A stretch of DNA of 64,000 bases from NCBI RefSeq assembly GCF_000550805.1, contig NZ_CP004353.1, positions 1,302,001-1,366,000 on the forward strand, given 5' to 3'. This DNA is from Corynebacterium vitaeruminis DSM 20294. Lineage in GTDB: Bacteria; Actinomycetota; Actinomycetes; Mycobacteriales; Mycobacteriaceae. Positions 9,071 to 62,275 of this stretch are shown here, one piece after another (within the stretch, counting starts at the first letter, position 1; every line of letters begins with the position of its first letter). The notes beneath the pieces were generated by a model. The model worked only from the letters and a program-made list of their open reading frames with translations. It made no database searches and was not told where the DNA came from. A program made the translations under genes and the position numbers.

Positions 9071-9742
9071 ATGCCCGATCTTCGCCACGCCGCCAAAGTT
9101 GTCGGTGGCTCAGCCCAAAAGACTGCCAAGTCGGTGACAAAAACGTGGCGTTGGGTGATGCGTGTGACCATGGCATTGCTTCTCGGACTCGTGGTGGGAG
9201 CAGCGACCGTCATGTTTGGAGTAGTCCCCAAGGCGACGCTGTTCCAGACGGCTGAAACCACGAGCGACACGAAGGTTATTCAAGCAGTCGAACGCGAGGA
9301 GCAGGTTGTCCTCCTGAGCCTAGGTATTCAAGGTCTCAAGTCCGACCGAAAGCAATTGGAATCCCTGGGATTCTCCTTCCCATTTACAGATCGAACCGTG
9401 TACCTGCAGTATTCCTACCGGGCAAAGCTGGGGATCAATGGAAAAGACGTCAAGGTGGAGCAGGCAGGGGACAATAAGTACAAGGTAACCATCCCCAAGT
9501 TCATTTTTATCGGCCATTTGGACGAGCACTTCGAGCCAGCCATCGAAAACAACTCCGCTCTTAGCTGGCTCACGTCCAAAAAAGATCCCAGCGAAATGAT
9601 CAACGAAATTCTCAACGAGGATGAAATCAATGCCCGGCTAGATGAAAACAACCAGGCGCTAAAAGACCAAGCGAATTCCTTCTACTCAGGCATTATTCAT
9701 GGAGTGGAGCCTTCTGCAGAGATTGAGTTCGCCTACCGCTAG
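9071..9742 (+). CDS. Membrane-anchored protein, possibly DUF4230-like
   Basis: A 223-residue protein with a basic N terminus, one membrane segment (about residues 34-54) and a C-terminal extracytoplasmic domain. The region around KYKVTIPKFIFIGH resembles DUF4230 proteins, but this is only a resemblance. The ATG at 9071 is used; the frame is open slightly upstream. Base composition is clearly less GC-rich and codons more relaxed (ATT, CAA, AAA) than in its neighbours, suggesting transfer or weak codon selection. It ends directly in an R18 element and a terminator. Function unknown. Confidence 0.7.
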   Translation: MPDLRHAAKVVGGSAQKTAKSVTKTWRWVMRVTMALLLGLVVGAATVMFGVVPKATLFQTAETTSDTKVIQAVEREEQVVLLSLGIQGLKSDRKQLESLGFSFPFTDRTVYLQYSYRAKLGINGKDVKVEQAGDNKYKVTIPKFIFIGHLDEHFEPAIENNSALSWLTSKKDPSEMINEILNEDEINARLDENNQALKDQANSFYSGIIHGVEPSAEIEFAYR

Positions 9743-9760
9743 GCGTCGACAAGCAAAAGC
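9742..9760 (+). repeat. R18 intergenic element (abuts stop codon)
   Basis: GGCGTCGACAAGCAAAAGC begins at the last base of the upstream TAG stop. It is one copy of the short family described under findings. Confidence 0.75.
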
Positions 9761-9802
9761 AAACCCGCGCTTTTTCTGGCAGCTGCCAGGGCGCGGGTTT
9801 TC
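9761..9802. terminator. Bidirectional terminator
   Basis: AAACCCGCGC (9761-9770) pairs with GCGCGGGTTT (9791-9800), with T-runs outward on both strands. It separates the convergent genes ending at 9742 and 9804. Confidence 0.82.
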
Positions 9803-9803
9803 G

Positions 9804-10883
9804 CTATTGCTGCTGGGGGAGCGGGTTCTTCAAGCGCTCGGAGGCGGGCAGCGGCTCAGGGAGTGTGACTCCGTCGGCGAAGGGGGAGCCGCCGAGGCGC
9901 TCGCGGCCGTGCTCGGTGAATAGACCGGAGAGATCGGGGCCGAGCGGGACGATCTGCGTGGGGTTGATGTCGGTGTGGACCTTGTAATAGTGCTGCTTGA
10001 TCTCGGTGAAGTCGCAGGTCTCGCCGAAGCCGGGGGTCTGGAACAGGTCGCGCAGGTAGCCCCACAGCGCGGGCATGTCCTGGATTCGGTTGCGGTTGCA
10101 CTTGAAGTGGCCGTGGTAGACCGCGTCGAAGCGCACGAGCGTGGTGAACAGGTAGATGTCGGCCAGCGTGATGTGCTCGCCCACGAGGTAGCGGCGGGTA
10201 GCAAGGCGCTCCTCGAGGGTGTCGAGGGCGTTAAAAAGGCGATGGTAGGCGGCCTCGTAGGCCTCCTGCGTGCCCGCAAACCCGCAGCGGTAGACGCCGT
10301 TGTTGACCTCGGTGAAGATGTACTTGATCAGCGGGTCCATCTCCTCGCGCAGCTCAGCGGGGTAGAGGTCGGGCGCGCCGGGGCGCTCGTAGGCCTTCCA
10401 CTGGTCGTTGAAGTCCTTGACGATGGTGGGGTAATCGTTGGTGACCACCTTGCCGGTTGCCTCCTCGACCAGCGCGGGCACGGTGATCCCGCGCGGGTAG
10501 TCGGGGAAGCGGGCGAAGTAGGCGTCCTGGAGGCGCGGGATCTTCAGCACCGGGTCGATGCCGCCCGGATCCAGATCGAAGGTCCACGAGCGCACGTCGT
10601 GGGTGGGGCCCGCCAGGCCAAGGGAGATAACCCCCTCGAGGCCTTTGAGGCGGCGGACGATAACGGCGCGGTGTGCCCAGGGGCAGGCGCGCGCGGCGAC
10701 GAGGCGGTAGGCGTTCGGCGTCGCCGACCAGTGCCAGGTCCCGTCCGGTTGCTGCGTTGGCTTGTCGATATCCGCCACTATTCGATCGCCGATGTAGTTG
10801 GTGTCGCGGACGAATTCGCCGTCGGGGGAGGCATTCCTGGCGTCCCCGGCCCAGTCGGTGGTTTGCTTACTTGATTGATTCAT
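9804..10883 (-). CDS. GST-fold reductase of the glutathionyl-hydroquinone reductase family
   Basis: A 359-residue protein of the Xi-class GST (ECM4/YqjG) family. The catalytic Cys is in ACPWAHR (C67), followed by a thioredoxin-like domain and an all-helical C-terminal domain containing ITLADIYLFTTLVRFD. The family reduces glutathionyl-hydroquinones. Corynebacteria use mycothiol, so the thiol adduct here is probably mycothiyl (inference). The start at 10883 has GGTGGG upstream; an in-frame ATG at 10919 would add 12 residues. It is divergent from the HNH nuclease gene. Confidence 0.85.
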   Translation of the reverse strand: MNQSSKQTTDWAGDARNASPDGEFVRDTNYIGDRIVADIDKPTQQPDGTWHWSATPNAYRLVAARACPWAHRAVIVRRLKGLEGVISLGLAGPTHDVRSWTFDLDPGGIDPVLKIPRLQDAYFARFPDYPRGITVPALVEEATGKVVTNDYPTIVKDFNDQWKAYERPGAPDLYPAELREEMDPLIKYIFTEVNNGVYRCGFAGTQEAYEAAYHRLFNALDTLEERLATRRYLVGEHITLADIYLFTTLVRFDAVYHGHFKCNRNRIQDMPALWGYLRDLFQTPGFGETCDFTEIKQHYYKVHTDINPTQIVPLGPDLSGLFTEHGRERLGGSPFADGVTLPEPLPASERLKNPLPQQQ

Positions 10884-10944
10884 GGGGCCCACCCTAGCAG
10901 AGAATTGTTGACGTTTCACATAAATTGGGTGGGTGCTGATCTTT

Positions 10945-10968
10945 CGCCTCGAAGGAATGTTCGAGGCG
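10945..10968. promoter_or_regulatory. LexA-like (SOS box) palindrome
   Basis: CGCCTCGAA (10945-10953) and TTCGAGGCG (10960-10968) are exact inverted arms with a 6-base spacer. The core TCGAAGGAATGTTCGA (10949-10964) resembles the actinobacterial SOS box TCGAAC(N4)GTTCGA, matching 14 of 16 positions of the form TCGAACA-NN-TGTTCGA. It covers the expected -35 of the downstream nuclease gene, whose -10 TACAAT is at 10985-10990. Confidence 0.6.
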
Positions 10969-60973: not shown

Positions 60974-61164
60974 CGACGTGGCCTTTCCGTCCGCTCTACT
61001 AGTTCTTTGCTTGTTTATTGACGATAATCCACCCGGGGGCAATTTGCCCGTCGCCTCGGTGCGTGTGTCGGCCGGGAAGCGTTTTCCCCCACATGCGTGC
61101 AGTGGCTCCCCGCTGGGAGCCAGCTGAACGTAAGATGGACGAACCGGGGGTTGCCCATGCCGTA

Positions 61165-61177
61165 GGCGTCGAAAAGC
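61165..61177 (+). repeat. R18 element (partial)
   Basis: GGCGTCGAAAAGC, a shortened variant, 30 bases before gpsA. The rest of 60974-61207 shows only the mutT1 and gpsA control regions. Confidence 0.5.
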
Positions 61178-61207
61178 CCCAGCAAACAAACGCGCAAGGA
61201 GTGCAGA

Positions 61208-62203
61208 GTGAAGGTTGCCGTGATGGGAGCGGGCTCGTGGGGGACGACCCTCGCGAAGGTTTTTTCGGACGCTGGCTGCCGCGTCACGCTCTGGGCGCGC
61301 CGGGCCGAGGTGGCAGACGCGATCAACGCCGAGCGCCACAATCCCGACTACTTGAGCGATATCACGCTGCCGGTGGCCCTGGGGGCGACCCACGACCCGG
61401 CCGAGGCGATGCGGGAGGCGGAGATCATCGTCCTCGCCGTGCCGTCGCAGACGCTGCGTGAGAACCTCGCCCGCTGGACCGACCTCATCCCGCAGGGCGC
61501 CACGCTCGTGAGCTTGGCCAAGGGCATCGAGAAGGGGTCCTTCCTGCGCATGAGCCAGGTCATCACCGAGGTGACCGGCGTCGACGAGCAACGCATCGCC
61601 GTGCTGTCCGGGCCGAACCTCGCCCGCGAGATCGCCGAGGAACAGCCCGCGGCCACCGTCATTGCGTGCAAGGACGAAAACCGCGCCAAGCTTGTCCAAG
61701 CGGCGCTGGCCTCGCCGTACTTTAGGCCGTACACCAACTCCGACGTCATCGGCTGCGAGGTCGGCGGCGCCAGCAAGAACGTCATCGCGCTCGCCTGCGG
61801 CATGGCCTCCGGCCGGGGGTTGGGGGAGAACACCATCGCCACCGTGATCACCAGGGGGCTTGCCGAGATCACCCGCCTGGGGATCGCGATGGGCGCGGAC
61901 GCCCGCACCTTCTCCGGGCTCGCGGGCCTGGGCGACCTGGTGGCCACCTGTTCCTCGCCGCTGTCGCGCAACCGCTCCTTCGGCGCTCGCCTCGGCGAGG
62001 GCGGCACCTTGGAGGAGGCCAAGGCCGCCACCAACGGCCAGGTGGCCGAGGGGGTCATCAGCTCCCAGTCGATCTTCCAGCTCGCGCAGAAGCACAAGGT
62101 GGACATGCCGATCACGCAGGCCGTCTACGGCGTGTGCCACAAGGGTGCGGACGTGGGGGCGATGGTCGCGGCGCTCATGGGGCGCTCCAAGAAGGCGGAG
62201 TAA
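61208..62203 (+). CDS. gpsA: Glycerol-3-phosphate dehydrogenase (NAD(P)+)
   Basis: A 331-residue cytoplasmic enzyme that makes sn-glycerol 3-phosphate for phospholipids. The cofactor motif is GAGSWGTTLAKVFSD; catalytic Lys lies in CEVGGASKNVIALACG; GLAGLGDLVATCSS is typical. The GTG at 61208 is preceded by AAGGAG. It lies upstream of ddl, as in related corynebacteria. Confidence 0.96.
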   Translation: MKVAVMGAGSWGTTLAKVFSDAGCRVTLWARRAEVADAINAERHNPDYLSDITLPVALGATHDPAEAMREAEIIVLAVPSQTLRENLARWTDLIPQGATLVSLAKGIEKGSFLRMSQVITEVTGVDEQRIAVLSGPNLAREIAEEQPAATVIACKDENRAKLVQAALASPYFRPYTNSDVIGCEVGGASKNVIALACGMASGRGLGENTIATVITRGLAEITRLGIAMGADARTFSGLAGLGDLVATCSSPLSRNRSFGARLGEGGTLEEAKAATNGQVAEGVISSQSIFQLAQKHKVDMPITQAVYGVCHKGADVGAMVAALMGRSKKAE

Positions 62204-62256
62204 GAAGCGGGCCCGCGGCCCGCCGCCTAGGCGTTAAGTCCGCCGAGGAAAAAGGT

Positions 62257-62275
62257 GGGCGTCGAAAAGCAAAGC
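62257..62275 (+). repeat. R18 element (variant)
   Basis: TGGGCGTCGAAAAGCAAAGC spans it, between gpsA and ddl. Confidence 0.55.

Follow-up and report, generated by a model that had tools for sequence, protein, structure and literature searches.

Why does one short sequence recur, often close to a stop codon, along a stretch of the chromosome of Corynebacterium vitaeruminis DSM 20294? The stretch, hereafter the window, comprises 64,000 nucleotides (positions 1302001-1366000 of a one-contig, 2,931,780-bp chromosome), and a family of elements of about 18 bp had been picked out there from the sequence alone. This original prediction considered a terminator or mRNA 3'-end module, a protein-binding site and a mobile repeat. 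We find that the family is an over-represented, constrained and dialect-bearing motif, and that its coding copies, where checked, were made by substitution. The reading that we judge most likely is a DNA uptake sequence, which was not among the options first considered; it fits best, and we give it an even chance of being correct. Another genome-wide recognition site comes next in our ranking.

The motif and its abundance

Alignment of 128, and later 247, copies with at most three mismatches defined the core CGTCG-R-N-AAGC-R-AAA(A), or CGTCGRNAAGCRAA(AA), of 14-17 letters, with GTAGG or GAAGG as a frequent lead; the commonest leads among the 247 aligned copies are CCGTAG (44/247) and CCGAAG (23/247). 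Nine core positions are 98-100% constant in these 247 copies, in which the mismatches (three at most) were permitted anywhere, and core variation is confined to positions 6, 7 and 12 and the A-tail. Such a concentration of changes at few positions is unexpected for a decaying repeat and expected for a recognised site. Beyond the core and its short lead the flanks show neither conservation nor a conserved boundary.

In the window, the 18-mer GGCGTCGACAAGCGAAAA has 13 matches with up to three mismatches, where 0.06 are expected and 100 shuffles gave a maximum of 1, which bears out the earlier judgement that the family is real and too regular for chance. A count over the whole genome with up to two mismatches returned 109 forward and 101 reverse copies (210 together) and a single match to the pattern read backwards; the pattern CRTCGNNAAGCRAA has 419 matches in the 2.93-Mb chromosome (204 + 215), and its reversed control 3 (3 + 0). 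The motif is non-palindromic and in large excess on both strands, beyond what codon use would give, as would be expected of an uptake sequence, and its density is ~0.14 per kb. Copies with at most two mismatches, degenerate cores and relaxed cores are three different sets, and their counts are not interchangeable.

Our unbiased sample consists of 20 evenly spaced 20-kb stretches and the window (464 kb), with genes called by a home-made codon-model caller; stretches added afterwards were chosen for copies, synteny or gaps. Of the 60 degenerate cores in this sample, 16 fall in called genes and the other 44 between them. The description of the family as intergenic therefore stands for the larger part only, and one copy first reported as intergenic, at 48378, itself lies in a called gene.

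A strand-polar motif of the kind represented by Chi or the FtsK-orienting polar sequences (KOPS) was considered and rejected, as the 200 listed of the 210 copies show no clear strand bias between the halves of the record (forward 59/41, reverse 48/52; the origin was not located). A literature search of open-licence papers, mostly at listing level, returned nothing on this motif, nor on uptake sequences in the genus Corynebacterium.

Persistence of sites and dialects

The genome closest in GltX among 242 (89% identity; G454, hereafter the sister) carries 131 + 147 = 278 copies. As a separate observation, a record titled Corynebacterium vitaeruminis strain 1285_CVIT has a GC content of 0.59 and only 71% GltX identity to the window. 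Orthologous sites were compared between the window's genome and the sister at 36 own sites in a syntenic region, 25 of them testable, and at 126 control intergenic points, 62 of them testable. At least 13 of 15 bases were kept in the orthologous segment at 13 of the 25 sites, 12 in the same orientation, versus 6 of the 62 controls (Fisher p 5e-5), and at least 14 of 15 at 7/25 versus 2/62 (Fisher p 0.002); 12 of the 25 testable sites had no sister match. The testable share was higher among own sites than among controls (25/36 versus 62/126, p = 0.04), which suggests that own sites lie in conserved context. Base preferences differ between the two genomes: position 6 is G in 16 of 20 sister copies (220 kb) versus 20 of 83 own copies, and position 12 is A in 18 of 20 versus 44 of 83. 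Sites thus persist, with a spelling that follows the species.

Across the genus, the 18-mer with up to two mismatches is present in 120 of 151 Corynebacterium genomes and CRTCGNNAAGCRAA has matches in 136 of the 151 (reversed controls 0-5 per genome). Counted from the table, 37 genomes hold at least 100 copies of CRTCGNNAAGCRAA (207 in G090, for instance) and 25 hold none or one, among them G014, G041 and G120 with a GltX identity of 81-83%. A draw across the family comprised 251 genomes; in the 229 that belong to 30 other genera the 18-mer is near background, at 0-4 copies each. On these sequence counts the motif in its own spelling, other spellings elsewhere not having been searched, is a Corynebacterium trait within the family, with several branches lacking it. 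Dialects are evident in partial lists of copies: CATCG stands in every listed copy of G111 and in all but one of G006, and CGTCGTC is common in G099 and G102. Dialects among related species are again a property expected of uptake sequences.

The gltX neighbourhoods of 80 genomes held four own-spelling core matches (up to two mismatches), with little synteny downstream of gltX; the window gene at 52654 is unsuited to an orthologous-site comparison, as 8 of 150 other genomes have a counterpart with >60% identity over most of its length; and although G042 has 85 copies in its genome, none of the relaxed kind turned up in the 80 kb of it (four stretches) that were inspected.

A proposed uptake sequence or another recognition site

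To our knowledge, uptake sequences have been described only in Neisseriaceae and Pasteurellaceae, and none in Actinobacteria. Were the motif such a sequence, it would serve as a short, non-palindromic and strand-indifferent mark of the species, which a natural-transformation receptor recognises in trans, presumably at a Tad pilus with a ComEA/ComEC apparatus. Tagged DNA would be preferred for uptake and recombined into the chromosome, so that tagged alleles would spread. Point mutation and biased recombination would build up copies wherever the core genome permits them (at gene ends, between genes and in tolerant codons), freshly acquired prophages and integrative and conjugative elements (ICEs) would stay free of them, and the dialect would drift jointly with receptor specificity. 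We infer that a protein recognises the motif, that the same protein imports DNA and that Corynebacterium takes up DNA at all. The broader proposal, which we advance tentatively and with somewhat less confidence than the reading of the motif as an uptake sequence, is that Corynebacterium carries out sequence-selective DNA uptake with its own dialects, probably through Tad pilus, ComEA and ComEC, as a third independent system and the first outside the two proteobacterial families.

Genes for such an apparatus are widespread. In the window's genome ComEC adjoins a helix-hairpin-helix (ComEA-like) gene; ComEC is found in all 151 Corynebacterium genomes, and 148 of the 151 match the Tad-ATPase family TIGR03819, 142 of them above its cut-off. 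Two further observations concern these loci. ComEC frames of at least 640 aa occur in 19 of 25 genomes with 0-1 copies versus 8 of 36 with at least 100 copies (for the 37th none was listed), a count made by hand and confounded by phylogeny; the ComEC gene of the window's genome (2178502-2179911) was called at 470 aa. A 98-aa protein of the tad locus (L285:9185-9481) occurs in 7 of 9 other motif-rich loci (not in G026 and G099) and in 4 of 10 loci of 0-1-copy genomes (G133, G014, G041 and G120), and is not among the called genes, which are incomplete, in G030, G128, G039, G147, G066 and G010.

The widest gap between listed copies with at most two mismatches runs from 692 to 800 kb. Not one core copy falls in four stretches inside it (80 kb; 694001-774000), whose GC content is 0.61-0.62 and whose codon scores are poor. 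Their genes include those for a TrwC relaxase, a terminase, tape-measure and tail proteins, restriction-type proteins (among them one of GmrSD type) and a family A DNA polymerase; judged by this gene content, the gap contains an ICE/prophage region. One of the evenly placed 20-kb stretches (L032), in the 172-242 kb gap, is prophage-like, with a Sipho_Gp37 phage gene, has the lowest codon score of 30 stretches and holds no copies. A stretch in the 455-527 kb gap (L034) carries the SecY and RpoA genes, so essential conserved operons appear to be another copy-poor place.

Several results weigh against an uptake sequence, as does the lack of a terminus bias among in-gene copies (last section). The main mobile region was selected for inspection because it was a copy-free gap; the DNA of the 2694-2770 kb gap looks native, and 60 kb of it hold 10 core copies; gap lengths are random-like overall (9 above 45 kb versus 8.3 expected; p = 0.09 for the largest); and copy number does not correlate with codon score in 30 stretches not chosen for copies (Spearman 0.03). 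The uptake genes are present but do not discriminate: ComEC and the Tad ATPase are also found where the motif is missing, so their distribution neither follows it nor accounts for which genomes carry it. A comparison of tad-locus gene content between 10 motif-rich and 10 0-1-copy genomes, with incomplete gene calls, gave no clear receptor candidate, and the open-licence literature, searched mostly at listing level, gave no report of competence in Corynebacterium. Relaxed matches were few at 80 gltX loci, mostly of named Corynebacterium (15 in 10 loci over 1.50 Mb; reversed control 1). Finally, Neisseria and Haemophilus carry their uptake sequences at a higher density, and the core of those is shorter.

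The closest competitor, a possible but less probable reading, is a chromosome-wide site for another host DNA-binding factor, concerned with the nucleoid, condensation, recombination or self/non-self distinction, that needs no strand orientation and whose sites would arise by substitution and be maintained by selection. Any trans-acting factor fits the constant core positions, the coding copies, the dialect shift at retained sites and the copy-free mobile regions examined, and the half-chromosome counts given above, with no clear replichore bias, agree with a factor indifferent to strand. A recognition site for a protein was among the options first proposed, and it is a live one. Against a factor of this kind, placement tracks gene ends and ignores starts (see below), inverted pairs and dialects have been described in uptake sequences, and no such factor was found, no genome-wide search for one having been made.

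Placement at gene ends and copies in the window

The original prediction had set copies against stop codons, and the sample supports this: a stop is at most 20 bp away for 19 of the 44 intergenic copies, versus 8.0% of random intergenic positions (binomial p 3e-10), and 9 of 44 overlap or abut the stop codon, versus 2.8%. Starts show no enrichment (9% of intergenic copies within 20 bp versus 8.9% of random positions). Copies per kb number 1.13 between convergent genes, 0.54 between tandem and 0.38 between divergent ones. Inverted partners (up to two mismatches, no more than 120 bp off) were found 5' of 31 of the 213 distinct copies, with each member of a pair counted. Other arrangements at this distance are rare: 3 inverted partners lie 3', and direct ones number 4 upstream and 0 downstream. 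Gaps to inverted partners show no helical phasing at ~10.5 bp (p = 0.15; among the five periods tried, 9.5 gave 0.01). Placement at gene ends and pairing of 31/213 copies are what permissive locations and inverted pairs of an uptake sequence would look like.

The refined core CGTCGRNAAGCRAA has 14 matches in the window, those at 23017 and 39839 being newly added by it, listed here with one degenerate partner:

9744..9757, plus strand: core CGTCGACAAGCAAA; the stop TAG at 9740-9742 lies within the lead of the element
12953..12966, minus strand: core CGTCGACAAGCAAA; first reported as a weak copy at 12945, between called genes
17562..17575, minus strand: core CGTCGGAAAGCAAA; first reported as a weak copy at 17556, between called genes
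23017..23030, minus strand: core CGTCGAGAAGCAAA; antisense in the called gene 22769-24586, with the same 15 bases in a gapless alignment to the sister
24599..24612, plus strand: core CGTCGACAAGCGAA; ~10 bp past the gene end at 24586, the orthologous segment of the sister reading CGTCGGCAAGCAAGA
35271..35284, minus strand: core CGTCGACAAGCGAA; adjoins a stop at 35267 (one base off) and has, at a distance of 11 bp, an inverted partner with 1 mismatch
39753..39766, minus strand: core CGTCGATAAGCGAA; just past the end of gltX at 39747, which is three bases before 39751 in the element; inverted pair with 39839-39852, gap 72
39839..39852, plus strand: core CGTCGGCAAGCAAA; partner of 39753-39766
43996..44009, minus strand: degenerate core (2 mismatches), the inverted partner of 44032-44045, where a gene ends (43997)
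44032..44045, plus strand: core CGTCGATAAGCGAA
48380..48393, plus strand: core CGTCGACAAGCGAA; in the called gene 47938-48717, frame ASTSEN; absent from the sister, whose aligned sequence is no shorter here
53816..53829, plus strand: core CGTCGACAAGCGAA; the TAG at 53812-53814 of a cysteine-desulfurase-like gene (52654-53814) lies within the lead GCCGTAGG
55868..55881, minus strand: core CGTCGGCAAGCAAA; between divergent genes
56672..56685, plus strand: core CGTCGACAAGCAAA; abuts the stop (56688) of a minus-strand IclR-type regulator gene
62260..62273, plus strand: core CGTCGAAAAGCAAA; the aligned sister copy reads CGTCGGAAAGCAAA

The strong copies originally placed at 9742, 24596, 35268, 39749, 44031, 48378, 53814, 55865 and 56670 are all present to within a base or two. 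Of the weak ones, those at 12945, 17556 and 62257 fit the refined core and that at 61165 does not; the inverted pair 43998/44031 exists, its member at 43998 being only the degenerate partner. The reported contact with stop codons is also seen here, two TAG stops (9740-9742 and 53812-53814) falling in the lead and the gene ends at 35267, 39747, 24586 and 56688 abutting the element or lying one to ten bases off.

The enrichment near stops and the high density between convergent genes favour a module downstream of stop codons that forms mRNA 3' ends or terminates transcription, as do the inverted pairs, since long hairpins could form from them; that longer forms can fold into hairpins was part of the original description and holds for some copies. 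We nonetheless consider such a main role unlikely. Between tandem genes the copies have no preferred orientation (16 the same as the genes, 11 opposite), and copies occur inside genes. T is scarce in the 12 bases 3' of the core (11%), and TTTT occurs in 2 of 217, so canonical terminators are not implied; the hairpin with a T-run in gene orientation that marks an intrinsic terminator is lacking. An Rfam scan of the window matched only tRNAs and a cobalamin riboswitch. The riboswitch (943-1106) lies upstream of a gene called at 1170, and two equal-scoring tRNA-Glu(ctc) genes (41254-41327 and 42121-42194) stand ~0.8 kb apart near a tRNA-Gln.

Copies inside genes and their origin

Two conserved proteins with in-gene copies were compared with 120 homologues each. 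In TsaB, where the copy is read as SLLADE, none of the 120 has a gap in the motif codons; in phosphoenolpyruvate (PEP) carboxylase (DVDKQM) the figure is again 0/120, one row having a gap within 10 residues. These two coding copies therefore arose by substitution, not insertion, as in-gene copies of an uptake sequence would.

That origin bears on the proposal of a mobile palindrome related to repetitive extragenic palindromic (REP) elements or miniature inverted-repeat transposable elements (MITEs), of which single copies would be half-elements. Palindromic pairs, some of them extending into long palindromes, and the intergenic excess agree with it. An insertion should leave an indel, and neither checked coding copy has one (intergenic copies were outside this check); neither flanks nor a boundary are conserved; the sister retains sites with altered spelling; and a genome search for Y1_Tnp, the REP-associated tyrosine transposase (RAYT) type, was negative, other transposase families not having been searched. 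We therefore regard a mobile repeat as very improbable, slightly more so than a terminator.

Codon use or chance, although a single antisense frame accounts for 26 of 54 in-gene copies (31 antisense, 23 sense), can be dismissed: the 16 in-gene copies of the sample compare with a mean of 0.05 in 60 synonymous-codon shuffles (maximum 1) and a reversed control of 0, so the motif is not a product of codon use, and the 210 genomic copies compare with 1 for the reversed control.

Comparison with known systems

If the motif is an uptake tag, self-selective transformation would have evolved independently in a genus with a mycolic-acid envelope, competence would have gone undiscovered in a genus of industrial use that includes pathogens, and the carriage of dialects would offer a sequence-based test of receptor-tag coevolution. 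If it is not, several hundred sites would make up an equally unexplained genome-wide recognition code.

REP sequences and bacterial interspersed mosaic elements (BIMEs) with their RAYT, and MITEs, are dispersed intergenic palindromic pairs, as some copies here are. The Corynebacterium motif differs from them in having no boundary, no Y1_Tnp match in its genome and a substitution origin of the two checked coding copies. Chi and KOPS are short, oriented and found genome-wide, within genes too. The motif shares shortness, genome-wide spread and genic copies with them, but it is longer and without clear half-chromosome strand bias.

The Pasteurellaceae uptake signal sequence (USS), represented in Haemophilus by AAGTGCGGT with about 1300 copies, likewise has in-gene copies and inverted pairs, as an account of Haemophilus terminators describes (PMC5217627). 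Its sequence is unrelated. A second account describes a preferred orientation within reading frames and an excess of copies towards gene termini (PMC2346458), whereas the orientation preference here is weak (31 antisense versus 23 sense of 54) and 42 in-gene copies show no terminus bias.

The DNA uptake sequence (DUS) of Neisseriaceae is also unrelated in sequence and shorter (10-12 bp versus 14-17); the motif here has an actinobacterial host, and no ComP-type receptor is known or was found for it. In most other respects the two are alike. Two accounts of Neisseria describe many copies on both strands in genic and intergenic DNA, inverted pairs, an invariant core with species dialects, permissive core-genome locations and scarcity in recently acquired genes (PMC3630211, PMC2397512), the last of which may have a parallel in the two copy-free mobile regions examined here, the main one of them chosen as a gap. 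In most of the sequence properties tested, the Corynebacterium motif resembles the uptake sequences of Neisseriaceae and Pasteurellaceae.

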